This document shows positions 5,710 through 51,108 of a DNA stretch of 64,000 nucleotides, piece after piece (the first letter of the stretch is position 1; each line of letters starts with the position of its first letter). The notes below the pieces were generated by a model. That model searched no databases and was not told the origin of the DNA. It saw nothing but the letters and a program-made list of their open reading frames with translations. Origin of the DNA: a virus; IMG/VR virus record IMGVR_UViG_3300020450_000010, positions 1 to 64,000 of that record. The stretch is one strand, 5' to 3'. A program made the translations under genes and the position numbers.

Positions 5710-6374
5710 TGTTTGGTAGTATTCTTATATCAATTTTCATAGGAATCATTTGGAGTCAAATTATAAGTCATTGGGGTGCAAGTATATTACTGCACAGATA
5801 TTACTGTCATAAACAATTCAAAGTTCCAGTCTGGTTTGAAACTATTGGGCTCGCAATGCTTATGGTTGCTTGCATAAGAACTCCAATTGGATGGATTGCT
5901 AGTCATAGAATGCATCATGAACATAGTGACCATGAAGGTGATCCACATGCAGTAAGTCAAGTTGGTTACTGGAGAGTGCTATTAACAACTTGGAATATAG
6001 AAAAAATACCAATGAAGTATGCCAGAGACTTGTTTAAAAATCCTCGTTTGGTATTTTGTCATCATCACTGGGGCAAAATTTTGATTGCAGTAAATGTAAT
6101 CAGCTTGTTAATAAGTCCATATTTTTGGATAGCATTTTGTGCAGTACCTTTCGTTTTTGCTAAAATAGGTTTTGGATTATTGAATACTGTAGGGCATAGA
6201 GTTGAGGGCGGAGCAGATGTTCCGTGGTTAAACTTTTTCATTGCTGGTGAAGGATTTCATAGACAGCATCACAAAAACTGGAAACGTATTAGATTACACA
6301 AATGGGATACCGGAGGCTGGATAGCAGAAAAACTATTTCATCCAAAGACTGGTCTAATTGCCGTTAAAAATTAA
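5709..6374 (+). CDS. Membrane fatty-acid desaturase (delta-9 type)
   Basis: 221 aa with all three di-iron His boxes: HRYYCH (29-34), HRMHH (66-70) and HRQHH (184-188). Hydrophobic membrane segments lie near residues 3-25, 42-58 and 122-160. Members of this family put a double bond into acyl chains in the inner membrane. Marine phages carry related genes, presumably to change host membrane fluidity. It is shorter than cellular desaturases (often 270-300 aa) but the catalytic set is complete. It sits under a late promoter and its 3' end overlaps the convergent gene at 6354 by 21 nt. Confidence 0.9.
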   Translation: MFGSILISIFIGIIWSQIISHWGASILLHRYYCHKQFKVPVWFETIGLAMLMVACIRTPIGWIASHRMHHEHSDHEGDPHAVSQVGYWRVLLTTWNIEKIPMKYARDLFKNPRLVFCHHHWGKILIAVNVISLLISPYFWIAFCAVPFVFAKIGFGLLNTVGHRVEGGADVPWLNFFIAGEGFHRQHHKNWKRIRLHKWDTGGWIAEKLFHPKTGLIAVKN

Positions 6375-6938
6375 TTCATCAATAAACTTCTCAGAACCTG
6401 TATATAATATACCCTGCCAATTATCTTTCCACACCAGCTCAATTGTATCTTTATACACTTGCCAATTTTCAAAAACATCTGGTCTTTTGTTTTTTATACG
6501 TTCAAAAAATTTAGATCCTTTTTCTCTACTCCAAAAAAAGAACGGGTATTGTTGCTTTAAATGTTCGTAGTGGAATAAGTCTACTTGAAAATCATCTACC
6601 ATATTGAATTTTTGATTGGTCTGATTGGTTCTATAATTACTAAACAACCAGTACCTACTAAACAGTCTACAAGTGTTATCGGTCATATGTTGAGCACCTG
6701 TAACTAGCACTGGCTGATCTTTTTGATAGTCCCATAACACACTAAAAATAGCCATATCCTTTAGTTTTAAGCCCTTGTAAGTGTAGTTCCATGCCAACTT
6801 GTCATTTGCACTGTCTTGTTCTAATAGTGGAATAGTTTTGCTGGCTATATCATTAAACTGTTTGCTAGGACTTGTACCATTTACAATTATAGGTACAACT
6901 GTATATCCACAAGCTAACTTTTGTTTTGTTACTTCCAT
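6354..6938 (-). CDS. Hypothetical protein, possibly GNAT-like
   Basis: 194 aa and the last gene of the long leftward block. No diagnostic motif is visible. The alternating strands and helices around SVLWDYQKDQPVLVTGAQ, followed by an Arg-rich segment (CRLFSRYWLF), are reminiscent of acyl-CoA N-acyltransferases, but the acetyl-CoA-binding signature cannot be placed with confidence. Its start overlaps the stop of the reductase-methyltransferase fusion by 10 nt, so it is probably co-translated with it. Confidence 0.6.
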   Translation of the reverse strand: MEVTKQKLACGYTVVPIIVNGTSPSKQFNDIASKTIPLLEQDSANDKLAWNYTYKGLKLKDMAIFSVLWDYQKDQPVLVTGAQHMTDNTCRLFSRYWLFSNYRTNQTNQKFNMVDDFQVDLFHYEHLKQQYPFFFWSREKGSKFFERIKNKRPDVFENWQVYKDTIELVWKDNWQGILYTGSEKFIDELIFNGN

Positions 6939-8203
6939 ATATGAGCAATCCGTCTTTTACCAGAGAATATATTAGCATCAACTACCCAATCCTGATAGTT
7001 ATACTGTTCTTTATACTTGTACAAGTCTTGTTCAATAGTATTCAAACGCATGTTAGGTAACCATTTACTTGGATGTTGATCTTTACAAGGCTCTTGAATA
7101 ATAGCATGTTTGCTATTATAATATTCAAATGTTAGATTGTTGAACAACTGCATATGATTGTCTGGATCATATAGTAATACTCCACTCCAGATTACACAGT
7201 CAACTGCAAAGTCTACAGGAATATTATCATACATATTTCCCACTGCATAACTTATATTATCATTATTTTGCCAAACTTCGTTGGCAAACTCAATTGGCTG
7301 TGGGCTTGTATCAAATCCAAAATAATTGTAATCTTTATATCCCCTTTGATATAATACATCATTGACTGTACCTATTCGACAACCCACATCAACTATGCCT
7401 TTTATATTGTTTTCAATTATTATATCTGCTTGTTTTTCAAATATTGGTTTAGCTTCCTGCGTGTCCAAGTAACTCATGCTTCTCAATTTATAGTCTTGTT
7501 TTAAAGGTACTTCAACTATCTCTTGTGCATTTTTAGGAAGTCTGGGCCATGGTATACCATTTACTCTGTGTACATTTTTTATTTCATATTTCCATTTGGT
7601 ATTCCATTTTTCATAGTCAGATATCCAAGTCAGACTATTGTCTTTTACTTCTTTTTTTGTCTTAGATACATGCGTATCAGAATATTCACTTATGCTATCG
7701 TATATATGTTTTACGTTTTTAAATGCACCAGGAACTACACAATTCCAACTATCATTTACAACAAAACTTTGTACTACATTTGCACCCATTTTGGTTAGTA
7801 GATGTTGAGTCATCTCAAAATGTCTAGCTCCATTAGGAGCTTTTGATGTGGGCGTGAATGTAATTACAAATATAGGCTTGTCAGTTATTGCATAATCTGT
7901 TCCTAGTTTAGCATTGAACTTAGACTTGACTACTAACCAATCCATAGCATTTTTAAATCCTGCACTATAGTGACTGGTTGCTTCACTAATAGCAAAAACC
8001 AATATGTCAGCATCTAACGCACTATTAAATTGTTCAACACTGTCAGGCACATTACCATCGCTTTTGTTTGAATAACAAACAGGCATATCAAAGTCTGTCA
8101 TGTCAAATATACTATCAAACAACTTTTCTTCATTGAGTAATTTCAATCCACGAGTCTGTAGACTGTTTTCTGCGTGACTAAAACTTATTCCTACTATTTT
8201 CAT
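6929..8203 (-). CDS. FMN reductase / SAM methyltransferase fusion
   Basis: 424 aa. Residues 1-205 match the NADPH-dependent FMN reductase (flavodoxin-like) fold and its conserved FKNAMDWLVVK (83-93). They align over their full length with the stand-alone protein at 11808-12452, including the terminal W-x6-W-x3-W-type segment. Residues 245-424 form a class I SAM-dependent methyltransferase with motif I VDVGCRIG (271-278) and a following acidic FGFD. The natural reading is a flavin reductase coupled to a methyltransferase acting on one intermediate. Substrates are unknown. It overlaps the next upstream gene by 4 nt. Confidence 0.8.
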   Translation of the reverse strand: MKIVGISFSHAENSLQTRGLKLLNEEKLFDSIFDMTDFDMPVCYSNKSDGNVPDSVEQFNSALDADILVFAISEATSHYSAGFKNAMDWLVVKSKFNAKLGTDYAITDKPIFVITFTPTSKAPNGARHFEMTQHLLTKMGANVVQSFVVNDSWNCVVPGAFKNVKHIYDSISEYSDTHVSKTKKEVKDNSLTWISDYEKWNTKWKYEIKNVHRVNGIPWPRLPKNAQEIVEVPLKQDYKLRSMSYLDTQEAKPIFEKQADIIIENNIKGIVDVGCRIGTVNDVLYQRGYKDYNYFGFDTSPQPIEFANEVWQNNDNISYAVGNMYDNIPVDFAVDCVIWSGVLLYDPDNHMQLFNNLTFEYYNSKHAIIQEPCKDQHPSKWLPNMRLNTIEQDLYKYKEQYNYQDWVVDANIFSGKRRIAHIWK

Positions 8204-8718
8204 ATCGAGTCTAAATCTGTTCCTTTAATTATGAAAAACATTACAACTAATCTATACTCATCTATAGGTTCTACCATATGCCAATACTCACCATTTTTCA
8301 ACCAAAATCCTTCTCCTGGACCATATGTTATGCTGTCTATTTTATTTGCAGTATTAGGTTCAACTATACTAGTTGTTGCTTTTCCTATTAACGGCAATAA
8401 AAAAGTTGCCTCATATATTTCAGTAGGATCAATATGTGGAGATAGAATTTTACAACTTGGGTACTCTTGTAGTGTACAATAATTAGGACCTTTGTCTCTA
8501 AAGTTTCCGTCGAGTGGAACTATTGTGTTCAGATAATTCCATAAGTTATTAGGACATTCACCGTCCCAATATATTTGATCATTACTAAGTAACCAATCTT
8601 CTTCTGCAGGTTTACTAAGTTGTAGTTTTCTTGCCCATATTAATGCTTGGTCTAAATCGAAGTCTAGTTTGTAACTAGTACCCCATTGTTTTTTAGTTCC
8701 ATAATCTCTTGTAGTCAC
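8200..8718 (-). CDS. 2OG-Fe(II) oxygenase-like (aspartyl-hydroxylase fold)
   Basis: 172 aa. The metal triad is visible as H95-x-D97 and H147, with R156 in position to bind 2-oxoglutarate. The double-stranded beta-helix fold is supported by the strand-rich segment between them. The start is a GTG preceded by GGAG, and it overlaps the previous gene by 26 nt. It is one of five such oxygenase-like genes in a row (8200-11844). Substrate unknown; it could be a free amino acid, a peptide or a glycan intermediate. Confidence 0.7.
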   Translation of the reverse strand: MTTRDYGTKKQWGTSYKLDFDLDQALIWARKLQLSKPAEEDWLLSNDQIYWDGECPNNLWNYLNTIVPLDGNFRDKGPNYCTLQEYPSCKILSPHIDPTEIYEATFLLPLIGKATTSIVEPNTANKIDSITYGPGEGFWLKNGEYWHMVEPIDEYRLVVMFFIIKGTDLDSI

Positions 8719-9493
8719 TTGCTACTCTCCAAAGCAATCTAGGACCCATCACGGGTGTACGTCTATGCAAGCTGGTAAACTGATCCATAAACAACATATC
8801 ACCATACTGGAAAATATGATGTGTTTGATACTTACTTTTGAATATCTTTGGAATAAGTTTTTCAATTATAGGCTCGTGGTCTACTTTCTTTTTACCTTCC
8901 CATGCACCACATATAAAGTGATAGGGAAAGTAAAAGTACTTTAGATCATTGTGAGGATGTACGCCTATTAGATTTCTGATACTGCCTCTGTTTTTGTTCA
9001 TAAACTCCAGTTCAGGATCGTCATCATCTAAGCTGTACATTGTATGGTTTTTAAATTTAATCTTAATTTTAATACTGTTATAATATTCTTGCTCATCTTC
9101 ACTCATGTCATAATAAGGTTGGCTAGTGTTGCATATACTAAGAGTAGTATTAGGATCACCTTTAACACAATACAAACCAATTAGTATTTTATCAATAAGA
9201 TGTCTACTGTTTCCATTGCTATGCCAGCCCAATTCGCCATCGCCAAACATACCAATTTTGTTTCCTTCTGCATCTCTTTCACCACTTACTTTGAATATTT
9301 CTGGATGATCTGGATCATTCATAAACAATCCTGGAGCTTCACATTCGCCAATGCGTTTGAATATACTAGTAAGTTGTGCTTCTGTGTATTCTTGTTCAGT
9401 GAATATTGCAAGTCCGTCATGTTGAACTTGCTTCATAACATCTCTTAGTTCGTCGTCTGTGTAATCATAAAGTTGTGAGGTCATCTGTACCAT
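8693..9493 (-). CDS. TauD/TfdA-family oxygenase with H-S-N motif
   Basis: 266 aa. The fold is recognisable from FGDGELGWHSN (83-93), the distal His in MDQFTSLHRR (H243) and the 2OG-binding Arg near 252-256. The usual H-x-D metal ligand reads H91-S92-N93; the same replacement is found in the paralogue at 10085-11008. TauD proteins use Fe(II) and 2-oxoglutarate to hydroxylate small substrates. Asn in place of Asp may alter chemistry or simply mark this subfamily. It overlaps both neighbours by more than 20 nt. Two ATGs (codons 1 and 4) are possible starts. Confidence 0.8.
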   Translation of the reverse strand: MVQMTSQLYDYTDDELRDVMKQVQHDGLAIFTEQEYTEAQLTSIFKRIGECEAPGLFMNDPDHPEIFKVSGERDAEGNKIGMFGDGELGWHSNGNSRHLIDKILIGLYCVKGDPNTTLSICNTSQPYYDMSEDEQEYYNSIKIKIKFKNHTMYSLDDDDPELEFMNKNRGSIRNLIGVHPHNDLKYFYFPYHFICGAWEGKKKVDHEPIIEKLIPKIFKSKYQTHHIFQYGDMLFMDQFTSLHRRTPVMGPRLLWRVASDYKRLWN

Positions 9494-10076
9494 CCAAACT
9501 AAACATCAAAGCTATTCTTGGTTGGTTACTCATATTAACCACTGCATGTGGATAACCAATGTTAAGAAAGTTTGCTGTTCCATCTTCTAAATTATATGCT
9601 TCTAGCTTTCCGTCTCTTTTAAATAAATTAATTACATTTTTTCCACCATAGACTGGACATATACATCTGACTGCATAGCTTACATCATAGTCTACGTGAA
9701 AAGGAATAGTTTTTCCTGGAGCAAGTTTTGTTATTCGTACTCTGCTGGCAGGCGCTTTTAATTGTGTTACAATTTCTTCAAAGTAACTGTCTGTATAATG
9801 TTCAGTTGGAACATTGTACAAGTGTTCTTCTCTGCGTCTAAGTCGTTTTTTAATACTAGGCTCATATGGAAGTATTTCACTTGGTTTAGTTAGATTAATT
9901 TGTTCAAAATTATCATACACATCTGCTACTAACTCCATGTGATTATCACATAGCATTGGGTTTGCTGTTTTTACATCTACAAATTTTTCTGCTAGTGTAT
10001 CTGTTGCTTCTCTTAATCTTACGAGATCAATGTCAAGATTTAGATTGGCTATTGTTGGTAAATCTTGTTTTTTCAT
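9465..10076 (-). CDS. Aspartyl/asparaginyl hydroxylase-like 2OG oxygenase
   Basis: 203 aa. H127-x-D129 (FHVDYDVSYAVRC), distal H177 (YPHAVVN) and R187 give a complete Fe(II)/2-oxoglutarate site in the order expected for the aspartyl beta-hydroxylase family. The first 100 residues are helical and charged. A strong GGAGG precedes the ATG by 4 nt. It may hydroxylate a protein side chain or an intermediate of the local pathway; the substrate is not visible from sequence. Confidence 0.8.
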   Translation of the reverse strand: MKKQDLPTIANLNLDIDLVRLREATDTLAEKFVDVKTANPMLCDNHMELVADVYDNFEQINLTKPSEILPYEPSIKKRLRRREEHLYNVPTEHYTDSYFEEIVTQLKAPASRVRITKLAPGKTIPFHVDYDVSYAVRCICPVYGGKNVINLFKRDGKLEAYNLEDGTANFLNIGYPHAVVNMSNQPRIALMFSLDGTDDLTTL

Positions 10077-10084
10077 TTTTCCTC

Positions 10085-11008
10085 CTACAAAACGTAATTA
10101 TAATGATTACGGACTTCAGCTTTATACCAATTAGCTGTTCTCAGTAATTCCCTGGGTTTATCCTTTAAGACATCGGGTCTTCTGTGAATTGTTGTTGTTT
10201 GATCCATCAACATAATATCTCCAGGTTTCCATGGATGCTTGTACGTGTACTTATCTGAACAAATCCAAGCGTTCCATATCTCATCATATATCTCTTTGCT
10301 ATTGTCTAATATTTTTCCATCTTGTATAAAACTTGTAATTTCATAAGGTTGGAAAAATAATCCTTCAGTGCCAAGTGGATGGTCAGGCACAAGCCTATGT
10401 TTATCAACTACACCTCTCCATTCGTTAAACTTGGACTTAACATCTTCTTCAATATTTGTACAGAGTTGAACTTTGCTTTTGTCTCTATTTTGCTTTATTC
10501 CTTTCATTACAGTGTCCGTATACTTAATATCCCAGTCAGGTTTCCATGGCTGATTCAAAGGTGTTGTATCAGTAGCATGCCAAAGTGTACTGTGTAATGT
10601 TTTATAAAAATTTTGTGTGTCTTTGCTTAGTGTATGCCAATAAGGAATACTAGTACATATCCATGTTTCCGTATGGTATGTTATAGTTTTTCCATATATT
10701 CCAACTATTTCTTGTGCGTCACAATGCGGAACAAGATTGCTGTGCCAGTCTAGTTCATCATCACCAAATAGTCCTTTGCTTCCATCTTCTGCCAGTGCTT
10801 CTGTTGATACACGCCAAAAATATTCACTATGTTCTTTGTCTGTACACCAGATGTCTGGGCTTACATGATAGCCAAACTCTAATGCCCATTGTGCATATTC
10901 TTCTGGTGAAGCACCACTGTTAAGTATCATTAAATATCCATGTTCGGCACACCAACGGCTGGCTTGAATAGGATCAATTGCTTCTAGTTTTTTATCTTTT
11001 ATAATCAC
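10085..11008 (-). CDS. TauD/TfdA-family oxygenase with H-S-N motif
   Basis: 307 aa and a paralogue of the gene at 8693. The conserved segment FGDDELDWHSN puts H89-S90-N91 where H-x-D is expected. The distal His is H275 in MDQTTTIHRRPDV, followed by the 2OG-binding Arg near 290. Trp-rich loops between strands suggest a specific substrate pocket. It probably starts at a GTG that overlaps the upstream stop codon (GTGA). Reaction: Fe(II)/2OG-dependent hydroxylation or related oxidation; substrate unknown. Confidence 0.8.
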   Translation of the reverse strand: MIIKDKKLEAIDPIQASRWCAEHGYLMILNSGASPEEYAQWALEFGYHVSPDIWCTDKEHSEYFWRVSTEALAEDGSKGLFGDDELDWHSNLVPHCDAQEIVGIYGKTITYHTETWICTSIPYWHTLSKDTQNFYKTLHSTLWHATDTTPLNQPWKPDWDIKYTDTVMKGIKQNRDKSKVQLCTNIEEDVKSKFNEWRGVVDKHRLVPDHPLGTEGLFFQPYEITSFIQDGKILDNSKEIYDEIWNAWICSDKYTYKHPWKPGDIMLMDQTTTIHRRPDVLKDKPRELLRTANWYKAEVRNHYNYVL

Positions 11009-11844
11009 TTGAAATGGTCCTCGGTAATAATATAGTCCTTGTATTTTTCAATACTTCTGTCTAATAGTTCATGCCACTTTTGTATATTTAACGTTCCCAT
11101 TGGCATTAATTGTATTCTCTGGCTAGGATGATAACCAGCATCTGCTCCATGTTCATGCACATTTCCGTCATACGCCATTGTGTTTGTTTCTGGTGGCAAT
11201 TGAGGATATATTCGTGTTTGTGCATGATCTTTGGTAAAATACAAATGCTCCTTGCGCCAATCTGTAACTCGGCTCCAACGCACTCTTAGTTGGCTAGGTT
11301 CTTGTGGCACTAATTTTTTACGAGCTCCTTCATATTCATCATAATGCGGACCAACTCCGTGATCATCTCTTCCTACAAACGCAAGCCAACGTATATTATC
11401 ATATGGCAGTGCTTCAACAAAGTCTACTATCTGAGGGAATTCATCACGCATAAAGTCAAACCATTCTCCTTTGACATCAGCGTAGTATTCACCATTTTTA
11501 AAACACATCAATGCTCTATAGTCGTGGTCATTAAAAGTGCTGTGTCTACTGCTGTTCATGTCTTCTGGTTTTTTATCAAACCAAGGTTGTGCTAAACCTT
11601 CATTTTTCTTTTGTACAATATCCTGCCAAACATTCCAGAATTTATCAAGATCTAAATCTACGTAGGGTAAATCTAAAGGTGTCCAAACTACCCCTTTATA
11701 ACCTGTGTACTCAGAGTTATAATTTACTTTATGATGCTCAGGATGACTTGGATCCTGCCTAGCAACATATTTGCTAACGTCACTTCCTGGAAGTCTTTGT
11801 TCGCTGTTTAAGACTTTTCTATAATTGTCCATTTCTCGTCCCAT
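11005..11844 (-). CDS. 2OG-Fe(II) oxygenase-like protein
   Basis: 279 aa. A candidate metal site is H167-x-D169 in GVGPHYDEY, with a distal His among H230/H232/H239 and R243 (SQRIQLM) for 2-oxoglutarate. The family resembles phage and bacterial aspartyl-hydroxylase-like proteins but is not certain. The start is doubtful: the ATG at 11844 overlaps the FMN-reductase gene by 37 nt, and a second ATG lies four codons later. It is part of the five-gene oxygenase run. Confidence 0.7.
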   Translation of the reverse strand: MGREMDNYRKVLNSEQRLPGSDVSKYVARQDPSHPEHHKVNYNSEYTGYKGVVWTPLDLPYVDLDLDKFWNVWQDIVQKKNEGLAQPWFDKKPEDMNSSRHSTFNDHDYRALMCFKNGEYYADVKGEWFDFMRDEFPQIVDFVEALPYDNIRWLAFVGRDDHGVGPHYDEYEGARKKLVPQEPSQLRVRWSRVTDWRKEHLYFTKDHAQTRIYPQLPPETNTMAYDGNVHEHGADAGYHPSQRIQLMPMGTLNIQKWHELLDRSIEKYKDYIITEDHFK

Positions 11845-12452
11845 TCTTCATATAAATGCAACCATTCACACATAGTTCTTACGTCTGTGTGTTCTGTAAT
11901 CATATTTTTCTTTTCATAAGGTTGCGATAAATCATTGTAAATTGTTTCAGATTCTGTTTTGACATACTCAAAATTGTCGGGCACACACTTGTCCCACCCA
12001 CGATTGAAAGCAATATGTCCTCTATAATCTGTGTTAAATTGTTTTAATAAATCCCGCATCATATCACTATGTCTAGCACCATTTGTATAACTTGGAGAAA
12101 ATGTAATACTATACATAGGCTTATGACTAATGCTATAGGGAATATCTAATCTTTTGTCAAAGTTAGTTTTTACAACTAACCAATCCATTGCGTTCTTGAA
12201 TGTGCCGCAATATCCGCCCATCATTTCACTTACTGCAAAAACATATGCATCAGCATCTATAAGTGCTTTATCAAATTTAATCACGCTTTCCGGCACACTG
12301 CCGTCAGCTACATTAGAATTTAAAACAGGAATATCAAAATCTATCAAATTAACATATTTGTGAAATCCTATAAATTTATCCATTAACTGCAATCCACGAG
12401 CTTGCATACTTTTAGGACTATTGCTGAAATTTACTGCTACTATTTTATTCAC
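11808..12452 (-). CDS. NADPH-dependent FMN reductase-like protein
   Basis: 214 aa with a flavodoxin-like fold. The N-terminal strand and loop (VAVNFSNSPKSMQARG) and FKNAMDWLVVK are family hallmarks. It is the stand-alone version of the N-terminal half of the fusion at 6929-8203. It could supply reduced flavin to a partner or deliver electrons to Fe-S enzymes, of which this window has twelve; this is inference. The start is a GTG that overlaps the upstream gene by 8 nt. Confidence 0.8.
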   Translation of the reverse strand: MNKIVAVNFSNSPKSMQARGLQLMDKFIGFHKYVNLIDFDIPVLNSNVADGSVPESVIKFDKALIDADAYVFAVSEMMGGYCGTFKNAMDWLVVKTNFDKRLDIPYSISHKPMYSITFSPSYTNGARHSDMMRDLLKQFNTDYRGHIAFNRGWDKCVPDNFEYVKTESETIYNDLSQPYEKKNMITEHTDVRTMCEWLHLYEEWDEKWTIIEKS

Positions 12453-13281
12453 CGATTTCTCTATTCATTAAGTAAGATAAGTCAAGTCTAGCAACGTCTT
12501 TTACTCTGCGTCTTACTTTATATTCTTCGCTGTTACTATTGGCAATAAAGAAACAATCACTTGGTGTTAACGAATATTCTTTGCAAATTTGATATTGTTT
12601 TTCTTTATACATATTGTATATATCATCTATTTTAAAGTTTGCCATTACAGCAAGACATATCTCTACACTTGTATAATTCCAAGCTTCAACACGTTTCATA
12701 ATACTAAGGCTTTTGTGTGGCTGTTTTGTAAAAACTAAACCACTGCGTTGTCCTATCAATCCCCAGCCTTTGCTAAAACTAAACCATACTTGTTCAGTGT
12801 TTACAGGCGGAACGATTGTTCGTATAGCAGTTGAACCTACATATGCACAATCCAGTATAACATCATTTTGAATTTTGTCAATATCAATTATGTTGCCGGT
12901 AGCACATGCAGGATTGCTAATGTAAAGCAAAGTATCAGGTTGTATTACTTCTACACTGGATCCATTGCCTCCTATCATTTTAGCATACTCATAGTCGCCT
13001 TTTAAGTATTGCCAAGGTCTTGTTTCAGTTGCTATCCATTGGTTGAGTGCATCAGTTACTCCGTTAACAAAGTAGCAGTGTGTAAACTCTGTAAGGTCAA
13101 TTATATCTTTAACCCATTCTCTATATTGCTGTTCTAATAGATCCAAACGTTTTTTTGCAATTCCGTTTCCTCTTGTATAATTTACTGGAGTAATTGTTTT
13201 TAACAAACTTTGTACTTCGGGTATTTGCGGTGCTTGTACCCAAGGATTCTTTTTCATAATACTTTTATAAAGTTTATTCAT
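12445..13281 (-). CDS. Short PLP-dependent aminotransferase-like protein
   Basis: 278 aa. The large-domain PLP site is complete: phosphate-binding NGVTDA (73-78), aromatic ring stacker in the Tyr/Trp segment near 90-100, N123 (ISNPACATGN), D144 for the pyridine nitrogen (ILDCAY), and the Schiff-base lysine K171 in FSFSKGWG. It is about 100 residues shorter than typical fold-type I enzymes, mostly at the ends, so the small domain is reduced. It likely acts on an amino or keto intermediate of the local pathway. Confidence 0.75.
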   Translation of the reverse strand: MNKLYKSIMKKNPWVQAPQIPEVQSLLKTITPVNYTRGNGIAKKRLDLLEQQYREWVKDIIDLTEFTHCYFVNGVTDALNQWIATETRPWQYLKGDYEYAKMIGGNGSSVEVIQPDTLLYISNPACATGNIIDIDKIQNDVILDCAYVGSTAIRTIVPPVNTEQVWFSFSKGWGLIGQRSGLVFTKQPHKSLSIMKRVEAWNYTSVEICLAVMANFKIDDIYNMYKEKQYQICKEYSLTPSDCFFIANSNSEEYKVRRRVKDVARLDLSYLMNREIGE

Positions 13282-13969
13282 CTACACCTACTGTAAAAAT
13301 ACTAATACCAATTTTTCTTTCAATGCCTTTACTTTTAAAATCACTGCTACAGTGTAATGCTAAACTATCAAAACACAATGCGTCTCCAACACGCCATGGC
13401 AATGCTTTATTAATACTAAGTCCGTTAAGCCAATTTTCTCTGAGATGTGTCAGATATGTGTCTTTAAAATTACTATCAATTGTAGAATGTAGTTTAATAT
13501 TTTCTACATTATTGTAAGTTGATAAAAATGTATTGTAGTGAATATTCCAATCGCTGGTATCTTCCCCATTAACAAATTTTGCAGGTCCTCCATAGTAATA
13601 CTGATCAAAAATTACAAGTTTAACATCATCACTATTACCATAAATTTTTAAAGGAATAGTAAATGCTTTGTAACAATTTGGATATTCAAACTCATCATCA
13701 TTGTGCAGTATATGAGGATCAGTTACATCAAAGTAATGCATATATCTTATTTTGCAAGGATCGATTGTACTTTGTAATTTACTAAGCAATGGATAAAAGA
13801 TATAATCCATTGGGTTTACTTTAAGCACACGCGGGCCAGTGCTTTTTTGCAATACGTCATGTTGATTTGCAAAATAATAATCTAACAATCCATCTATTGG
13901 AATATTTGTTATACTAAAAGGATCACCTTGTCCTTGTTTAATTTTGTCTATTTGTTGTTGTGTACGCAT
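13274..13969 (-). CDS. 2OG-Fe(II) oxygenase-like protein
   Basis: 231 aa from the ATG at 13969, which overlaps the preceding stop codon as TAATG; a longer reading from 14014 would overlap that gene by 46 nt and is rejected. H89-N90-D91 (ILHNDDEF), distal H206 (LALHCSSD) and R218 form a plausible Fe(II)/2-oxoglutarate site like that of phytanoyl-CoA or aspartyl hydroxylase families. An 8-nt overlap couples it to the aminotransferase gene. Confidence 0.7.
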   Translation of the reverse strand: MRTQQQIDKIKQGQGDPFSITNIPIDGLLDYYFANQHDVLQKSTGPRVLKVNPMDYIFYPLLSKLQSTIDPCKIRYMHYFDVTDPHILHNDDEFEYPNCYKAFTIPLKIYGNSDDVKLVIFDQYYYGGPAKFVNGEDTSDWNIHYNTFLSTYNNVENIKLHSTIDSNFKDTYLTHLRENWLNGLSINKALPWRVGDALCFDSLALHCSSDFKSKGIERKIGISIFTVGVDE

Positions 13970-14718: not shown

Positions 14719-14722
14719 TTTT

Positions 14723-22843: not shown

Positions 22844-22848
22844 ACAAA

Positions 22849-22870
22849 TATTTATATGCTACTATAAATA
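22849..22870. promoter_or_regulatory. Divergent palindromic T4-type late promoters
   Basis: TATAAATA occurs on the minus strand (22856 to 22849) and on the plus strand (22863-22870), within a perfect 9-bp inverted repeat (22848-22856 and 22863-22871) with a 6-nt centre. Each box ends 5 nt before the ATG it faces. With T4 late spacing (box at -13 to -6) both transcripts would start on the A of the ATG. Confidence 0.7.
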
Positions 22871-29544: not shown

Positions 29545-29661
29545 CTATTCGTATATAAATGGGTCTCGTTTTTTTATTTCTTCTAATCGTTTTTGTAATG
29601 CTTTTTTCTCTTTATACCTAATCCAAGGCCATAATATAAAATTTATTATTCTGGTAAACAT
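29545..29661 (-). CDS. Small membrane-associated protein, 38 aa
   Basis: Starts at ATG 29661 with GGAG 7 nt upstream, overlaps the carbamoyltransferase end by 16 nt and stops 7 nt before the glycosyltransferase gene. The N-terminus is hydrophobic and Trp-containing (FTRIINFILWPWI). The rest is a Lys/Glu/Arg helix ending RDPFIYE. The position after a carbamoyltransferase recalls the tiny membrane proteins found beside bacterial NodU-type enzymes, but homology is not established. Confidence 0.6.
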   Translation of the reverse strand: MFTRIINFILWPWIRYKEKKALQKRLEEIKKRDPFIYE

Positions 29662-42725: not shown

Positions 42726-42736
42726 AATATCTCTTC

Positions 42737-43378: not shown

Positions 43379-44771
43379 TGTATCCTACTAGTTTACTTGC
43401 ATCATCTAAGGCCCTGATAGGCACTAAACTTATTGCACCAATTTGTCTATTATTTGCACCCAAAGTATCTAGTCCCAACTCAATTATTTTTTCTTTGAAC
43501 TCACTTGCTCTATCCAAATAACCAGGAGGAGTCATCAATTTAATTTCTAACCAATGATCTTTGTTTACTTGCTTATGGTGATTTATGATAGCTTCACAGT
43601 TTTCTATAAATCTTTGTTCGTTACCAGGAAATTTATCCATGCTTCCAAAGTGTGCAGACATATTAATACTATTAATATATTTTACAGCTTCGCTCCAAAA
43701 CTTTTTGCTACGGCTTCCATTTGTTGTTACTAATACCCATTGTTTTTTGTAATTTAGATGTTTGAGTATATCCATAAATTGTGGATGCATACTGGGTTCA
43801 CCACCACCAAAGTTCCAGCGTATTTCATCTCCTTCTGCCCAGTGATCCACTGCTTTATCAATTGTTTGAATAATTTTTTCATAAGCATGATGTGGTTCCA
43901 CATTGTTGTGTACACTGGGCCAACAATAATCACAATCGTAATTACAACGTCTAGTAATATCCCAAAGTATTTGATGTACAATAGGAAAGTTCATTTCCAT
44001 TCCGTGAGGATTTTCAATTTGGTTATTTGTGTTGAAGCCATGTTTTTGTCCCTCAAAACCAAGATTAGTTACAAAAAGTTTTCCAACACTGGATACAGTT
44101 TTTGCTTTGCTTAATATTACATCTGCTCCACAGCCACAGCTTGTATAAGGACATTTTAACCATGTGTCAGGAGCTTCCCAATCTGTATAGATACTACCAA
44201 GTAATCCCCAGTCTTTGTCTTCAACAGTTGTTTTATAACTCCAGTTCTCAGGTGACTTAAGAAACTGCTTGTATAACTGATTGTTTCGATCACCAACATG
44301 TAGATACTTGTCAGGACTAAAGAACTCTGCTTCAAGCCTTGCTATCTCTGCCATTAACTTGTGTTGCTGTTCGCTATCTTTATGATTATACTTGGGCATA
44401 GGCCACCCATTTACTGTATTTTCATTAAGCCATTTTTTACGAAGTTCGCAATTAGGATCATCAGTGCCTATTATTGATTCACGATACTCTTTCCAAGCAT
44501 CTTCCAAATGTTGTTCATGATTTTGTTTAGTTTGTTTGTGAAAGTCGTTAATACGTTTAGTATGTACTTTACCATAGAAGTTTGAACTTGCACAATTAGC
44601 AACCCATACATTGCCGTCATAATCTATATAAAGATTACGTGCACCTGCACTACAATGCCAGTCTTTCCAATGATTCAGCCCCTGTGCAATAATTTCATCA
44701 ACTGAAAATAATTTGTAATTTGCATGATTATCATACAGTCTAAGTTGTTTATTATCTGTTGGTTGTTCCAT
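43344..44771 (-). CDS. Radical SAM protein with domains in reversed order
   Basis: 475 aa. The first 230 residues carry Cys groups (WHCSAGARNLYID at 38-50, VANCASS, KCPYTSCGCGAD at 207-216) that resemble the C-terminal auxiliary domains of the proteins at 15430, 18409 and 46035. The radical SAM core comes afterwards, with C276-x3-C280-x2-C283 (RRCNYDCDYCWP) and FGGGEPSMHP, and ends without a further Cys domain. This is a circularly permuted or fused arrangement. It starts at the FkbM gene's stop, sharing one base. Confidence 0.85.
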   Translation of the reverse strand: MEQPTDNKQLRLYDNHANYKLFSVDEIIAQGLNHWKDWHCSAGARNLYIDYDGNVWVANCASSNFYGKVHTKRINDFHKQTKQNHEQHLEDAWKEYRESIIGTDDPNCELRKKWLNENTVNGWPMPKYNHKDSEQQHKLMAEIARLEAEFFSPDKYLHVGDRNNQLYKQFLKSPENWSYKTTVEDKDWGLLGSIYTDWEAPDTWLKCPYTSCGCGADVILSKAKTVSSVGKLFVTNLGFEGQKHGFNTNNQIENPHGMEMNFPIVHQILWDITRRCNYDCDYCWPSVHNNVEPHHAYEKIIQTIDKAVDHWAEGDEIRWNFGGGEPSMHPQFMDILKHLNYKKQWVLVTTNGSRSKKFWSEAVKYINSINMSAHFGSMDKFPGNEQRFIENCEAIINHHKQVNKDHWLEIKLMTPPGYLDRASEFKEKIIELGLDTLGANNRQIGAISLVPIRALDDASKLVGYSENEISFFQQQ

Positions 44772-45427: not shown

Positions 45428-46038
45428 TATTTGTTTTCCAATACAACTCTTATTACACCAAAAAGAGGATCTTTTAGCACTGCTTCATTGTATATTGCAT
45501 TGGTATCTATTTCAAGTTTATCTAAATGCGTATTACTATACATCTGGTCATTTTTTAAATATCGACTTATATCTTGTTTGGTTTGTTCTTTTTGTCCATG
45601 CCAAAAGTAATGTACATTTCCAAGTTTTTGCCAACGTTTTTTATTTTTCCATTCATCTATGTTTTGATTTTCGTTTAGACTGATGTACATCCTATTGCAT
45701 TTGTTCAGTGCTTGTTTGATATTTTTTTCGATATCGTTCCAATGCAAGCTGTTTACAGCAATACCATATTTGTACTCTGGCAATTTTTCCCATGCTTCAT
45801 CATATTGCCAACCAAAAATGTCTGCTTCATTTGTCCGATCCATTCCAACAATATTTTTAAAAAATAATTTTAGATTGTTCTCACCACATCCTATATCAAG
45901 TATGTCATACCAATCATGACATTCAGTAATAAAACTATACAAAGGTTTAATAGTACAAAAAGGCAAGAATTCACTTCTTCTTGCTGTGTGTCTTAGTCTA
46001 ACTATATATTGCCAAGTTTCATCATATAATTGTATCAT
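45427..46038 (-). CDS. SAM-dependent methyltransferase-like protein
   Basis: 203 aa. Motif I ILDIGCGENNLKLF (46-59) is followed by KNIVGMDRTNEAD. The arrangement matches the paralogue at 35495. GIAVNSLHWNDIEKN corresponds to motif IV. It is shorter than typical class I enzymes at the C-terminus. Its start overlaps the upstream radical SAM gene by 4 nt. Substrate unknown. Confidence 0.75.
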   Translation of the reverse strand: MIQLYDETWQYIVRLRHTARRSEFLPFCTIKPLYSFITECHDWYDILDIGCGENNLKLFFKNIVGMDRTNEADIFGWQYDEAWEKLPEYKYGIAVNSLHWNDIEKNIKQALNKCNRMYISLNENQNIDEWKNKKRWQKLGNVHYFWHGQKEQTKQDISRYLKNDQMYSNTHLDKLEIDTNAIYNEAVLKDPLFGVIRVVLENK

Positions 46039-47033
46039 TCTTCTATCACATATCTATTTCTTGGTAATAATTTCTTACTCATTATGTCAAAATTACAATG
46101 ACACATAGATTTATTGCACATCACAGGCTTTGTGGGCCAGCGTATATATTCAGGCATTTTCATATTGCCAAATGCACCGCCTACTCTACACCAACCAATC
46201 ATTACACTGCCATCAAAGTCAACAACAATTTGTTCTATACCACTCCAACACAACCAGCCTTTCCAGTTGTTAGTTTTGTCATTGATAAATCTGTGGGCAC
46301 TGCTATTCTGATTAAGTTCGTTTACGTCATCATGCATTTGCATACTGCCGCGATAAATTTTCCATTGCTTTGTGTGCTTTATTTTACTTCCTAAATTATG
46401 CCACTGTCTGTCTATATATTCAGTTTGCCAATCTTCATAACTGTATAATGTCTCGCCAAAATCAATAATTAATGGTTGTAGTGCTAAACTGATATTTGGA
46501 ATTTCAATTACATCTTCAGCAACTTCTTGACAACGAGGCCATATCTCTGGATCATAATGCATCATTACATTTACATGTGTTCTGCATTGTTCACTCATAA
46601 TTTTAACGACTTCTACAAAATGGTCTGCTTTTCCTTCTTCAGGATGAAAACTTAAACATACATGATCAAAAATGTGCTTATGCTTTTCCCACCACCGTAT
46701 GGTTCTACTACTATTACTAATAAAACCTATATCATGTCCTATTTCTTTAATGTATTCAGCACCCTTAATAAAATCTCGCCATAAGGTAACTTCACCTCCT
46801 GTAAATTCAAAATAAATTTTACGTGGAGAGTAATGTTCTACAACACTATCTATAAAATCTTTAACTACTTGAAAATCGTTCCAACCAAAACTACCATCAT
46901 GCAATATGCTGGGACAATAACTGCATTTGAAATTGCACATATTGCCTAAGTTCCAATTTACTACTACCCAGTCTTTACATTCAGGATGATGATGGTCCAA
47001 TCTATTGTAGAAATTCTGTGGACCTAGTGGCAT
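46035..47033 (-). CDS. Radical SAM protein with C-terminal Cys-rich domain
   Basis: 332 aa. C33-x3-C37-x2-C40 (NMCNFKCSYCPS) and EFTGGEVTLW define the core. The C-terminal region WLCWSGIEQIVVDFDG, IGWCRVGG and MCNKSMCHCNF supplies at least five more Cys, a SPASM-like set. It is the most compact member of the CNYxCxYC group. It begins one base downstream of the stop codon of the glycosyltransferase-like gene. Confidence 0.9.
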   Translation of the reverse strand: MPLGPQNFYNRLDHHHPECKDWVVVNWNLGNMCNFKCSYCPSILHDGSFGWNDFQVVKDFIDSVVEHYSPRKIYFEFTGGEVTLWRDFIKGAEYIKEIGHDIGFISNSSRTIRWWEKHKHIFDHVCLSFHPEEGKADHFVEVVKIMSEQCRTHVNVMMHYDPEIWPRCQEVAEDVIEIPNISLALQPLIIDFGETLYSYEDWQTEYIDRQWHNLGSKIKHTKQWKIYRGSMQMHDDVNELNQNSSAHRFINDKTNNWKGWLCWSGIEQIVVDFDGSVMIGWCRVGGAFGNMKMPEYIRWPTKPVMCNKSMCHCNFDIMSKKLLPRNRYVIEE

Positions 47034-48026
47034 CTATGTATCTTCGACTCCTATATCATCAACGACTTGTGCCTCGGTAATCATTGCACCAAGTCTGTGA
47101 GGATTTTTATAAACAGCTTTGAAGAATCGACTTGCAACGGGATCCATATCACTTATTTCTAAGTCTAACACTCCTCGTAACTCACTTCCTAGCCTAACTG
47201 TTTCCTCTTTTAGTTTATTTAAGTCCCATGTCGCACCAGTGTTAACACACATCTGATCACCGCCTTCGAATTTGGGAAATAATTCAGTTTGAAAATAATT
47301 ACTTAACCAATCAAAATCTCTAACGTTTTTCCAGTCCCAATCATGCCTTTGAATATTGGTCATATAGCATCCTAGTCTGGATCCGTATATTGCCCATAGT
47401 CCGTTTGTAACATCTTCTCCAATACTCATCCACACCAAAAGTCTTTTATAATTTTCTCTATATATTCTTTTTATATCTTGTGGATCAACAACATCACCGT
47501 TTTCCAAACCCATCTTTACACCTTCACGGAAACCTGCTCTCCAGGCTTGTAGTGGTGAACCATTGTTCATTACATCACAGTACACATTGTTCATTTGCAC
47601 ATAATGGATATTCCAACAAAAGTCAACCTGTGCTCTTTTATCACTTTGCGGGGCCGCTTCATGTGTACGCATTTGATTTACTACATCAACGGGCCAACAT
47701 TTGATACCACCATTTCCATATACTAATCCATTCACTGTATTTTTTCCAGCCCAACTAATTACATCAACTGCTCTAATACGGTCCATGTCAATTTCAATAT
47801 TGAAAAAATCTTCTCTTACAATATTATCAGCATCTACTGTAATAAACCTATCTGTATCACATAATGCCGCCGCCGCTTTGTGTGCGGCATCACTTCCCCA
47901 TACACCATGACTACGTTTTGCCCAAGGACATTTGTTAAGCAAATCATTAAAATTTTGTTCAGCGTTAGGTTCATCATAACTAATAAAAACTATATCAAAT
48001 TCAGTTATAGGTACAAGGTTACTCAT
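47034..48026 (-). CDS. Glycosyltransferase-like protein (GT-A type)
   Basis: 330 aa. FITVDADNIV gives D65-x-D67 after AHKAAAALCDTD. The opening IVFISYDEPNAEQNF and the AWRAGFREGVKM block match the shorter paralogue at 28833. An additional C-terminal region of about 80 residues is present. Sugar transfer from a nucleotide-sugar donor is likely; the acceptor is unknown. It lies with two other glycosyltransferase-like genes just behind the tail genes. Confidence 0.65.
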   Translation of the reverse strand: MSNLVPITEFDIVFISYDEPNAEQNFNDLLNKCPWAKRSHGVWGSDAAHKAAAALCDTDRFITVDADNIVREDFFNIEIDMDRIRAVDVISWAGKNTVNGLVYGNGGIKCWPVDVVNQMRTHEAAPQSDKRAQVDFCWNIHYVQMNNVYCDVMNNGSPLQAWRAGFREGVKMGLENGDVVDPQDIKRIYRENYKRLLVWMSIGEDVTNGLWAIYGSRLGCYMTNIQRHDWDWKNVRDFDWLSNYFQTELFPKFEGGDQMCVNTGATWDLNKLKEETVRLGSELRGVLDLEISDMDPVASRFFKAVYKNPHRLGAMITEAQVVDDIGVEDT

Positions 48027-49033
48027 TAGTTTTCTCCTAAATTCATATCGAAGGTAATGTTCTTATGTTCTTCTCGTGTCATAATTTTACACGTTTTTAA
48101 ATCCATATCAGTATTAAGTATAACTTCTTGATTATATCCTACATCATTGAAAGGAATATGCAACATACCATTAAGTATATTTACATTGTTTTCATTTAGT
48201 ACATACAAAAATATATCTCCATATATTTTTTGTTCTGCTGGTTGCACAAAATTACTTCTAAGATAAAATTTATCTTCCTTGGGAATTATAGTAAAAGTAT
48301 TTGTAACTTGTTGATCTTGTTCTGTAATATCATGTATTAATCTTCTTTTATCTCTTCTTCTACTAAATTCAGCTCTGACAAAATTTTGTTTTCTTTTGAC
48401 TCCATAAGTTTTAAATATTTTTTTTGTTAATACAGTGATTTCACCAAGTCCACAGACAGGTCTAAGTTTATGCAAGTCGTATAAAATATAACCACTGCTC
48501 ACTAATTTTTTTGTATCTATCTCTATTGTGCCAATCAAATAATTAGGATCATTCTGTTTTATAAGAAATAATTGTATGTTATCATACTTTCCTTCGTTGT
48601 CTTGATTCACTGAAATATGTTTATGGAATCTTCTACCTGTCATCCTATACAGTGTATCTTCGTTGAAGTTGACTTCCATTTTCCAACTGTTGATGTAAAA
48701 TATTATATTTACATCTTGATTATTTTTGACTATTGGTAGTTTACTTAGAAAATTTTCAGCAGATCTAATTCTAATGCTTTCAGTTTTTTCCACTAATTTA
48801 AATCCATCGGTTAGTTCAATTACAGAATATTTCTGTGGATTAAGATCTCCAGTTAGTATTTTTCTTGCATCCTCAGATGTTGTATATACATATGGATATT
48901 TTATTTCTTCTCTAGGTCTATTTGTAACTGTAATTACTTCTTCCGTGAAATCATCAAAATACACACAAAATCTATGCGGAGTATCTTTTTCGTGTTTAGT
49001 GCTAACAAGAGGATTATGAACTTCTATAGACAT
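48026..49033 (-). CDS. Hypothetical protein, 335 aa, beta-rich
   Basis: No family is recognised. The sequence alternates hydrophobic strands and polar turns throughout, with a basic patch FSRRRDKRRLIHD near residue 230, and has no Cys-rich or nucleotide-binding motif. A virion or adaptor protein is as likely as an enzyme. It shares single-base or 20-nt junctions with glycosyltransferase-like genes on both sides. Confidence 0.6.
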   Translation of the reverse strand: MSIEVHNPLVSTKHEKDTPHRFCVYFDDFTEEVITVTNRPREEIKYPYVYTTSEDARKILTGDLNPQKYSVIELTDGFKLVEKTESIRIRSAENFLSKLPIVKNNQDVNIIFYINSWKMEVNFNEDTLYRMTGRRFHKHISVNQDNEGKYDNIQLFLIKQNDPNYLIGTIEIDTKKLVSSGYILYDLHKLRPVCGLGEITVLTKKIFKTYGVKRKQNFVRAEFSRRRDKRRLIHDITEQDQQVTNTFTIIPKEDKFYLRSNFVQPAEQKIYGDIFLYVLNENNVNILNGMLHIPFNDVGYNQEVILNTDMDLKTCKIMTREEHKNITFDMNLGEN

Positions 49034-49862
49034 TTATGACTTCATCAGTTAAAAAATTTTCATCGCAGTAATGGATAATACCACTTGTGATAATGTGATT
49101 TTCGATTTGTATCTTACCGTTCGAACTAATCCAATAATTCAACATTTCAGTCCATTCTTTTGGTAAATCTTCAGTCCAAACACCTTGACAGTCTGCATGT
49201 AAATCAAAATGATTGCCTACTAAAACTCCAATTTCGTCTTTAATATCTAAACAGTGCGTAACTAAATTACACAAAATATTTTTATCAAATGTACCAGGTT
49301 TCTTATCAGTAAAAAATCTATTATATGCACTTCTCCAATTTTGCATAATTGGATCTGCCATCTTGAACCATTCTAATGCTAGTTGTGTATCATTTTTCCA
49401 ATAAATCATATTGTTAAAAAATTTTGGTAAATCATACAAAGACTCAAATTCAAATCTATATGTATTGTCTATAGAATAGTTTCTGTAACTTAATGCATTT
49501 TGTGGCACAGCAAAGTCGCCTTTAGAACTCATTATATCCCATAATAAATCTATATCTATGTTGTGTAATAGAGTGTCTGAATCAACATATATTGTTTCAT
49601 CAAACGGACTACAATGAAACATTTGCCAAATATTCATTCCATGAAAACCATCTACGTGAGCACTATTTCCAAAAGGTAACTCAACAATATAATCAAAAAC
49701 CAACAAATAGTCTTTAGGCACCAGATCACTTTTGCCTTTGTCAACAACCAAACATGTTAAAGAATCTGGATCACTATGCTTAATACTACTTGCAAGTGCA
49801 TAACTGTGATATATCCTATCTTTTTCCGTATCTATGCCAAGTGTAATAAATCCTTTAGACAC
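49014..49862 (-). CDS. Glycosyltransferase-like protein (GT8-like)
   Basis: 282 aa from the GTG at 49862, which has GAGGAG 7 nt upstream; the longer TTG reading at 49877 would include that ribosome-binding site in the coding region. FDETIYVDSDTLL gives D94-x-D96, the metal site of GT8-type enzymes, and the N-terminal LGIDTEKDRIYHSYALA and GMNIWQMF fit the donor-binding fold. It pairs with the gene at 49855, overlapping by 8 nt. Confidence 0.7.
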   Translation of the reverse strand: MSKGFITLGIDTEKDRIYHSYALASSIKHSDPDSLTCLVVDKGKSDLVPKDYLLVFDYIVELPFGNSAHVDGFHGMNIWQMFHCSPFDETIYVDSDTLLHNIDIDLLWDIMSSKGDFAVPQNALSYRNYSIDNTYRFEFESLYDLPKFFNNMIYWKNDTQLALEWFKMADPIMQNWRSAYNRFFTDKKPGTFDKNILCNLVTHCLDIKDEIGVLVGNHFDLHADCQGVWTEDLPKEWTEMLNYWISSNGKIQIENHIITSGIIHYCDENFLTDEVINVYRSS

Positions 49863-50760
49863 TACTATTCTCCTCAAACATGGTGTTTATATTTTCAATC
49901 TGTCTATCAAATGCACGTTTGTTCATAAGATGCATATTTGTGTTTGTATGCCTACACAAAATATTTTTCCATGCTTCAAGTCTATTGTGTTTTAAAAATA
50001 CAAAATCGTTTAAACTGTTTAGCTTTACAATATCATCCTTTTGATCCATATTAAGCAATGGAGTGCTTTTAAAATCATCCATGAATACTTCATTTTGAAA
50101 ACCGTTGATCATATGACTAGCAATACTAACACAGAAATCTGTCCTAAATAGTGACTTTGGAAACTGATACAAAAGACTGTAATATTCCCAATTGTCTTTT
50201 ACATGACTCCAAATATCAAAAAACATTTTACTATGTTCGCTTTGATCAAAGTATACAACTGTACTCCACCAATGATTAATTCCTGCTCTATTAAGCATCA
50301 TTTCATCTTGATATGGTAGTTCACCTCCAAGATATTCTGCTGTTCTGTGCATAGCTACTGGAGTGTTTGTTTCAAATATATAATCATAAAAATTATTTTG
50401 TACAATAAAATCCGTATCAATCAATAGTGTACGTTCAAAAGGTGTATATTCAATTACTTTATGTTTATTTGAATTTTGAAACTGTGCAGTAAATTCTGAC
50501 CACGGACTGTCGTGATGCACTCTAGGATTACTAATATGTTCATCTTTAGTAATTATTACATAGTCAAAACAATAATCAATTGTCTGTTGACTTAAACTTT
50601 GTTTCATCCAGTTTTCAGTTCCTTCGTTGGTTATCAAAGCAACTTGATTATTTTTCATATTTCTTTTGACAAATTTACTTACAACACTTGCAAACTTAGC
50701 ATAGTCCAATTGTTCATTGTTGTAGGCAAAAATACATACGCCATTGCCATTTTTATCCAT
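49855..50760 (-). CDS. Glycosyltransferase-like protein (GT-A type)
   Basis: 301 aa. FERTLLIDTDFIV supplies D115-x-D117. The N-terminal CIFAYNNEQLDYAKFA and later WSTVVYFDQSEHS fit a GT-A fold related to its neighbour at 49014. Neighbouring phage tail genes lie directly upstream, so glycosylation of a virion protein is one possibility. Its start abuts the 115-aa gene's stop codon with no gap. Confidence 0.65.
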   Translation of the reverse strand: MDKNGNGVCIFAYNNEQLDYAKFASVVSKFVKRNMKNNQVALITNEGTENWMKQSLSQQTIDYCFDYVIITKDEHISNPRVHHDSPWSEFTAQFQNSNKHKVIEYTPFERTLLIDTDFIVQNNFYDYIFETNTPVAMHRTAEYLGGELPYQDEMMLNRAGINHWWSTVVYFDQSEHSKMFFDIWSHVKDNWEYYSLLYQFPKSLFRTDFCVSIASHMINGFQNEVFMDDFKSTPLLNMDQKDDIVKLNSLNDFVFLKHNRLEAWKNILCRHTNTNMHLMNKRAFDRQIENINTMFEENSSV

Positions 50761-51108
50761 TTACCAGTCCATTAAACTTTTTATGTTTCTAGCTTTTACA
50801 ATTTTATCCATTTGTGTTTTATACTCATTGGTAGATTCAGTATAAGCACTCAAAAGACTTTCTAAAAAATCTGCACAGTCTTCAACATATATGGGCTGTT
50901 CTTTGGAATCTAATATTATTGCATTTTGTTTTCCACTATCTATCAAAGTTTTTATAAAGCTAATTGTTGCAGGATTAGCATTAAATACTCCTCTGTTATA
51001 GTTAACAGTTTGTAACACATGCATACGCTGTCTTATTGTTCTTTTTTGATTACTTAATGTAATCCGATAATTTGCAAATTCTAATGCTTTTTCGAGTCTA
51101 TCATCCAT
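50761..51108 (-). CDS. Small hypothetical protein, 115 aa
   Basis: First gene of the 45-kb leftward block. No family is recognised. It is mainly helical and charged, with a central hydrophobic segment (ATISFIKTLIDSG). The ribosome-binding site AGGAG lies 9 nt before the ATG. It might belong with the tail genes (chaperone or minor structural role) rather than with the enzymes. Confidence 0.65.
   Translation of the reverse strand: MDDRLEKALEFANYRITLSNQKRTIRQRMHVLQTVNYNRGVFNANPATISFIKTLIDSGKQNAIILDSKEQPIYVEDCADFLESLLSAYTESTNEYKTQMDKIVKARNIKSLMDW

Follow-up and report, generated by a model that had tools for sequence, protein, structure and literature searches.

We describe here a block of 51 open reading frames (ORFs) of at least 60 amino acids (aa) at positions 6354-51108 of the virus record IMGVR_UViG_3300020450_000010, which is no random collection of genes and forms a conserved, ordered unit. 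The pathway is real and conserved, and a glycan is its probable object. Our favoured reading, to which we give a probability of about 50 %, is that T4-like aquatic phages express the block late as one pathway, by which a glycan or glycoconjugate is assembled and tailored, the virion being a likelier place for it than the host envelope. This reading is supported by the gene content, the conserved gene order, the selection acting on the core, the fold of a glycosyltransferase, late-type promoter motifs and cellular relatives with a polysaccharide neighbourhood. The stretch analysed, called the window in the following, comprises bases 1-64000 of the 124,715-base record (G000). Genes are named by the first of their coordinates, and labels beginning with G or L denote the records and loci compared.

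Results

The block is very densely packed. Fifty of its 51 ORFs lie on the minus strand, junctions overlap at 36 of 49 positions with a spacing of 0-10 nt at seven more, and the coding density amounts to 99.1 %, in agreement with a preliminary description of this DNA that had proposed a single, mostly leftward biosynthetic or modification block with overlapping or abutting junctions. The 12 radical S-adenosylmethionine (SAM) enzymes reported there are borne out as well, since the complete 124,715-base record contains exactly 12 matches to Pfam PF04055, every one of them inside the block and with an intact CX3CX2C cluster-binding motif. Nine of the 12 reach the curated cut-off of 29.5 bits in this whole-record search, while the remaining three are clear homologues of those; two of the three, 21446 and 41016, pass the cut-off of the twitch radical SAM family NF033640 (415 and 341 bits, respectively, with a curated cut-off of 170), a family whose name carries no substrate. 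The other enzyme families of the preliminary description stand in part. Pfam supports two TauD, one Asp_Arg_Hydrox and two FMN_red proteins, a nucleosidase (PNP_UDP_1), the N- and C-terminal carbamoyltransferase domains, a QueC-like PP-loop enzyme, FkbM and other methyltransferases, a B12-binding domain within a radical SAM enzyme and TctA. No Pfam match, even at E=1, exists for the aminotransferase, for 42737 among the sulfotransferase-like proteins and for five of the eight 2-oxoglutarate (2OG) oxygenase-like proteins, so that their labels are motif-level assignments read by eye, and the nitroreductase has a marginal Pfam match only.

T4-type portal, prohead protease, major capsid and gp46/47-type genes on the record rule out a bacterial origin of the window and confirm the viral origin assumed before. 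Identity of the portal protein to its counterparts in Pseudomonas phage PA5oct and Sinorhizobium phage Phosso reaches 54 %. Compared with phage HTVC008M, 25-40 % identity was found for portal, prohead protease, major capsid, gp46/47-type and gp25/gp6-type proteins. Nucleotide searches against cultured phages gave no match, and protein searches with the main radical SAM genes returned only matches of 20-26 % identity. The record is a T4-like myovirus of an uncultured lineage, in which a gp25-like match at 69511, a gp6-like match at 65915 and a large baseplate protein (53889-65915) are followed by the block.

A search with 21446 retrieved 541 related viral stretches, the best 80 of which (81-90 % identity) served as the loci for counting recurrence; many of them are truncated, which bears on all such counts. 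Gene 25141 recurs in 74 of these loci, 27672 in 63, 28833 in 53, 27896 in 50 and 15430 in 44. Dereplication at 97 % identity of 21446 left 50 non-redundant viral loci, and all 35 of those with four or more of the six core genes keep them in the same order and on the same strand, namely GT-A glycosyltransferase 28833, methyltransferase 27896, the 73-aa protein 27672 and the radical SAM enzymes 25141, 21446 and 15430. The preliminary description had considered that the families might prove unrelated between strains; this comparison of gene order and co-occurrence found them conserved. Median ratios of nonsynonymous to synonymous substitution rates (dN/dS), calculated for pairs with a dS of 0.05-1.5, are 0.064 for 21446, 0.087 for 15430, 0.125 for 27672, 0.165 for 25141, 0.244 for 28833 and 0.250 for 27896, showing that the core is under purifying selection. 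By motif, 276 of the 489 genes within the core spans are radical SAM genes. They are accompanied there by accessory families that include QueC-like, nitroreductase, cytidylyltransferase (CMP-sugar transferase), asparagine synthase, sulfotransferase, PP-loop, GDSL, kinase-like, methyltransferase and further radical SAM proteins, the CMP-sugar transferase being seen only in other viral loci and not in the window.

The first core gene, 28833 (28833-29537, minus strand as are all following genes unless stated otherwise), is predicted to fold as a GT-A glycosyltransferase. Its AlphaFold model (predicted local distance difference test, pLDDT, 84.6) gave 27 Foldseek matches with E<=1e-3, all of them glycosyltransferases, with TM-scores of only about 0.35-0.40. 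The glycosyltransferase-like label of the preliminary description is thereby supported for 28833 by its predicted fold, and remains at motif level for 49014, for which neither a Pfam nor a PDB sequence match was found. The class I methyltransferase-like gene 27896 (27896-28849) follows; its relatives in L131, L074 and L149 carry from zero to several N-terminal tandem repeats of about 23 aa with the motif LRKAVxEQNLHSIFRL. The third core gene, 27672 (27672-27893), is phage-specific, shares 64-85 % identity among the loci and encodes a 73-aa protein confidently predicted to form three helices (pLDDT 88.9). Foldseek against the PDB returned no fold match for it, so that the idea of a carrier protein gained no structural support. 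The three radical SAM enzymes 25141 (25141-26226), the N-twitch type 21446 (21446-22843), with a late-type motif 12 nt upstream, and 15430 (15430-16554; median identity 83 %) complete the core.

The position of the block is conserved, too. Radical SAM gene 46035 (46035-47033) is 82-87 % identical across 15 other viral contigs, which carry 1-16 radical SAM genes each, and in the ten contigs examined the block occupies the same slot behind tail genes; its far end lies near the same genes in the long enough contigs G005, G010 and G013. Tail proteins of these same-slot relatives are only 22-36 % and portals 53 % identical, and structural proteins taken together span 22-54 %, yet several radical SAM enzymes reach 75-87 %. 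Fifteen long carrier records (84-382 kb) hold 8-21 radical SAM genes each. The block is no hallmark of all phages with this capsid, as was ruled out with 12 capsid relatives (75-80 % identity) chosen regardless of the block: one has an orthologue of 21446 (66 %), three have distant paralogues and eight have none, an absence that is weak evidence because most of these records are fragments.

ATAAATA is the core of the T4 late promoter TATAAATA. This T4-late-type motif occurs on the minus strand at 51145-51151, 43 nt upstream of the block, where it overlaps the TTGACA-N18-TATAGT match starting at 51165 that the preliminary description had taken for the one promoter of the block. ATAAATA is about fourfold under-represented in the record (22 observed, 86 expected), and 19 of the 22 copies (86 %) lie just upstream of gene starts, a share that does not exceed 45 % for control 7-mers matched in composition. 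Its distance before virion genes is typically 25-47 nt; a subset of copies in the record stands exactly 12 nt before the start codon. The sigma-70-like -35/-10 match at 51165 does score 11 of 12, but such sites number 56 in that stretch with 43.9 expected and are not clearly enriched, so that the match alone means little and ATAAATA at 51151 is the better promoter evidence. A single promoter is not established, as further promoters may lie inside the block, at 22855 and in gaps that measure 108-126 nt. At the former site a divergent ATAAATA pair (22855 and 22864) separates 21446 from the sole plus-strand gene of the block, a divergent N-twitch-type radical SAM gene (22876-24156) whose ORF opens at 22822 and whose probable start at 22876 follows the motif at 22864. 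Judged from these motifs, the block would be expressed late.

Relatives of the core also occur in bacteria. In 84,980 cellular genomes searched with 21446 patterns only six loci were found, among them L067, a 13.5-kb contig in a Neisseriaceae metagenome-assembled genome (MAG) with a phage-type core including the 73-aa gene, which is probably a phage contig binned with the bacterium. With a 15430 profile, 15 of the 144 genomes in the Bdellovibrionota class to which L068 belongs yielded orthologues, and there the three core radical SAM genes are mostly found together, often with 27896- or 28833-type genes. These clusters (L068, L069 and L249-L262) share the three core radical SAM enzymes with the phage (37-66 % identity), and often the same methyltransferase or glycosyltransferase, but they are cellular, lack the 73-aa protein, have fewer genes and keep neither order nor strand fixed. 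L258 is the clearest case of a cellular core inside a polysaccharide cluster, with a nucleotide-sugar epimerase, an asparagine synthase (AsnB), an acyltransferase-SGNH protein and a family 2 glycosyltransferase as neighbours, and a family 2 glycosyltransferase or epimerase is found near the core in L253, L254 and L260. Phage sequences stand on one side of a branch in the 15430 tree (support 85/86), which is consistent with one transfer; the tree gives no direction. Proteins with a pilin-like N-terminus and no Pfam match adjoin core radical SAM genes in L257 (12186-13820), L259 (11907-13928) and L255 (8611-9135). L070 (Bacteriovoracaceae MAG) and L072 (Chitinophagales MAG) are cellular clusters with six or more N-twitch-like radical SAM genes.

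Further genes of the block are conserved to different degrees. At its head, 50761 (50761-51108, 115 aa) marks the boundary with the tail genes and is conserved in relatives, with homologues of 24-64 % identity in the same slot of G001, G003-G006, G008, G010, G012 and G013. Two glycosyltransferase-like genes (49014-49877 and 49855-50760) always adjoin the tail genes in a slot conserved in relatives. Set among glycosyltransferase genes, 48026 (48026-49033) encodes a fast-evolving protein of no known function with 38-41 % identity in G007 and G001, its slot elsewhere being occupied by unrelated proteins of 175-200 aa. The glycosyltransferase 47034 (47034-48026) belongs to the 28833 family (33 % identity to 28833) and is present in 23 of the 80 loci, and the radical SAM enzyme 43344 (43344-44771; PF04055) has an N-terminal extension and 51-58 % identity in relatives. 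A second conserved module (36689-42725), syntenic in L009/G006, G010 and G007, consists of the N-twitch radical SAM enzymes 41016 and 39854, the B12-binding radical SAM enzyme 37812 and 36689, a protein without functional assignment. Of these, 37812 matches B12-radical SAM families and is nearest to an unnamed radical SAM protein and to the apramycin enzyme AprD4.

Next to this module lie a TctC-like binding protein (32892) and a TctA transporter subunit (33949; PF01970, 5.6e-96) at 32892-35385, a pair retained in G010 and G008, with TctC also in G007. Only distant matches (25-30 %) to this phage-encoded pair were seen in the phage collection, and TctA proved uninformative for inferring a host, as the best matches reached 35-38 % when 385 genomes from the class that includes L071's genome were searched. 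The carbamoyltransferase 29646 (29646-31130; NodU/CmcH type, PF02543 and PF16861) has homologues in HTVC008M. Between the core genes lie the accessory radical SAM genes 18409 and 19692 (18409-20633), frequent without being universal (36 and 25 of the 80 loci, respectively), and 24143 (24143-25144; 30 of 80), the PP-loop ATP pyrophosphatase-like 20620 (20620-21453; 21 of 80), its homologue 26748, a QueC-like PP-loop enzyme (26748-27422; PF06508, 17 of 80), and a methylthioadenosine/S-adenosylhomocysteine (MTA/SAH) nucleosidase-type protein (17319-17867; PF01048, PDB 4pr3 with E=1.4e-9). The variable tailoring end (6354-15430) contains the TauD proteins 8693 and 10085, the Asp_Arg_Hydrox protein 9465, further 2OG oxygenases by motif, FMN reductases and aminotransferase- and nitroreductase-like genes, with homologues scattered in other loci. 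At the block end, a fatty-acid-desaturase-like gene (5709-6374) has a 73 % identical counterpart beside 2OG genes in G010 and weaker ones in seven of the 80 loci.

Discussion

In the pathway that we propose, glycosyltransferases would assemble a glycan or glycoconjugate, and the many radical SAM enzymes together with methyl-, carbamoyl-, sulfo-, amido- and oxygenase-type enzymes would tailor it chemically. The fixed core of GT-A glycosyltransferase, methyltransferase and three radical SAM enzymes may make or modify a common scaffold, with the 73-aa protein usual in phages acting as a helper or carrier-like part, while the variable genes between the core genes would alter the scaffold chemistry in the manner of O-antigen loci. 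Radical SAM and methyl transfer steps give rise to 5'-deoxyadenosine and SAH, which the MTA/SAH-type nucleosidase could clear. A tail or fibre glycoprotein of the new virion would be the first choice of target and the host envelope the second, the virion being more likely because the block lies directly behind tail and baseplate genes and under late-type promoter motifs. We infer the glycan as product, its display on the virion and every individual reaction from gene content and context. Two phages with smaller sets of such genes point in the same direction: the sole radical SAM gene of HTVC008M sits among glycosyltransferase, methyltransferase, carbamoyltransferase, UDP-glucose dehydrogenase and 2OG oxygenase genes, and Vibrio phage K566 mixes N-twitch radical SAM genes with glycosyltransferase-like ones. 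A bolder version can be put forward only tentatively, with the odds against it: a conserved multi-enzyme radical SAM pathway, common to this T4-like phage lineage and Bdellovibrionota-type bacteria, might give virions a class of glycan or glycoprotein modification that is chemically new, its core chemistry being fixed and its phage-specific tailoring making the virion surface more diverse.

Several observations weigh against a glycan pathway acting on the virion. SPASM/twitch radical SAM enzymes act mostly on peptides, which keeps a protein or peptide target open. Profile searches of solved structures with the core radical SAM enzymes yielded no relative close enough for a substrate assignment, the nearest matches of 15430 being an anaerobic sulfatase-maturating enzyme and viperin at E of about 0.001. 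Within the block, no route leading all the way from a primary metabolite to a nucleotide sugar was identified, and no nucleotide-sugar pathway enzyme was confirmed in the window; the preliminary description was right to see a pathway-like unit, for which a surface glycan is the best fit, and went too far in calling it an entire pathway, both because of this missing route and because several labels are motif-level. Furthermore, the bacterial loci L255, L256 and L259 show no obvious polysaccharide neighbourhood, the inner late motifs are only 12 nt from the start codon, which is short, and the block head also has its sigma-70-like match. Direct evidence does not separate virion from host as the target.

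The same enzymes might remodel a host surface glycan of the O-antigen type during infection and thereby exclude competing phages or alter receptors, as proposed for the host recognition cluster of pelagimyophages (PMC7029224). The polysaccharide neighbourhood of the cellular core in L258 would suit this explanation, yet exclusion is usually set up early, whereas late-type motifs precede the block, and the block stands directly behind virion genes, so that we regard host remodelling as unlikely while taking it seriously. More doubtful still is a peptide or protein maturation system resembling that of ribosomally synthesized and post-translationally modified peptides (RiPPs), in which radical SAM and 2OG enzymes would modify 27672, 27896 with its repeats or a tail protein and a glycosyltransferase would add a sugar. 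The twitch/SPASM and B12-radical SAM families do resemble RiPP enzymes, the repeats of 27896 are variable and 27672 is flanked by core enzymes in 63 of 80 loci, but 27672 is predicted to fold into three helices and is conserved over its full length, unlike a leader plus core, and it is missing from G005, G010, G013 and the cellular loci while the enzymes stay. A classical RiPP precursor role of 27672 is therefore not favoured, and no other recurring conserved small ORF (at least 60 aa) was found in the core span.

That the block merely collects auxiliary metabolic genes for iron-sulfur (Fe-S), SAM or host metabolism without a common product appears improbable. The accessory content does vary strongly, most capsid relatives lack the block, an A-type carrier gene is present in G016 and G010, and 12 radical SAM genes of another marine phage genome were taken as part of Fe-S metabolism (PMC5332604). 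Against it stand the core order, which is identical in all 35 loci, and the recurrence of this core in unrelated bacteria, and the window's record has no A-type carrier; Fe-S assembly genes, tried as regular partners, were found in just two of 13 records, the window's own not being one of them. Even further from what we expect is a hypermodified base built into the phage DNA. Radical SAM, 2OG, glycosyltransferase, carbamoyltransferase and PP-loop enzymes have all been linked to base modification in phages, and ThyX is encoded close by at 4542-5228. A scan of 50 block and edge proteins gave no Pfam match to a hydroxymethylase, a DpdA-like protein or another base-entry enzyme, however, the motifs are late rather than replication-time, and in bacteria the core is chromosomal with a polysaccharide neighbourhood.

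Phages are known for single metabolic genes or short sugar clusters, whereas each carrier genome described here holds 8-21 radical SAM genes, most of them gathered in a single ordered locus. The group gives 30-45 kb of its genome to this probable glycan pathway, which is far larger and more orderly than what phages are known to carry. Should the product decorate virions, phages would have a biosynthetic pathway devoted to varying the chemistry of their surfaces, which would matter for host range, competition and defence among microbes of aquatic communities. The locus also offers a clear genetic setting for a group of radical SAM chemistries that still lack an assignment, and the core shared with Bdellovibrionota-type bacteria as well as the small cluster of Vibrio phages K566/K567 make the question testable. 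In these cultured phages (L153, OZ196521.1, about 159.2-171.0 kb), N-twitch-type radical SAM genes are interleaved with glycosyltransferase-like genes, and K566 has seven radical SAM matches.

The statement of the preliminary description that it knew of no described phage system of this composition is not supported, given three precedents. Zaragoza-Solas et al. (2020, PMC7029224) reported the pelagimyophage host recognition cluster (HRC), a variable region of 44.6 kb on average behind baseplate genes that contains glycosyltransferases and some radical SAM cassettes and for which host O-chain modification was proposed. Both systems are large islands of T4-like marine phages, and the order of gp25, gp6, large baseplate protein and block is kept here. 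Searched with HTVC008M queries (blastp, E<=1e-4), the HRC bounds VrlC and gp14 had no match in the 124.7-kb record, a result limited for gp14 since it could lie off the fragment. The HRC contains tail fibre genes, while here two fibre-like genes (51172 and 52339) stand at the block edge and most others at the other end of the record, and a fixed-order enzyme core is not described for the HRC. Nishimura et al. (2017, PMC5332604) presented the T4-like marine genome TARA_ERS488813_N000010, which, compared by its published description only, equals our record in having 12 radical SAM genes; these were read as Fe-S metabolism, and the text gives no locus, order or pathway analysis. Genes gp155-gp164 of HTVC008M (NC_020484) bring together glycosyltransferase, methyltransferase, carbamoyltransferase, PP-loop-like ('NAD synthetase'), 2OG oxygenase and radical SAM genes, but with one radical SAM gene versus 12 and with a UDP-glucose dehydrogenase; none of the three core radical SAM enzymes was detected in HTVC008M. 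Compared with the open PubMed Central literature, what is new here is the ordered, conserved enzyme core with its variable tailoring genes, cellular counterpart and late-type motifs, and we regard the block as a strongly enlarged, radical SAM-rich variant of the surface-modification islands of T4-like marine phages.

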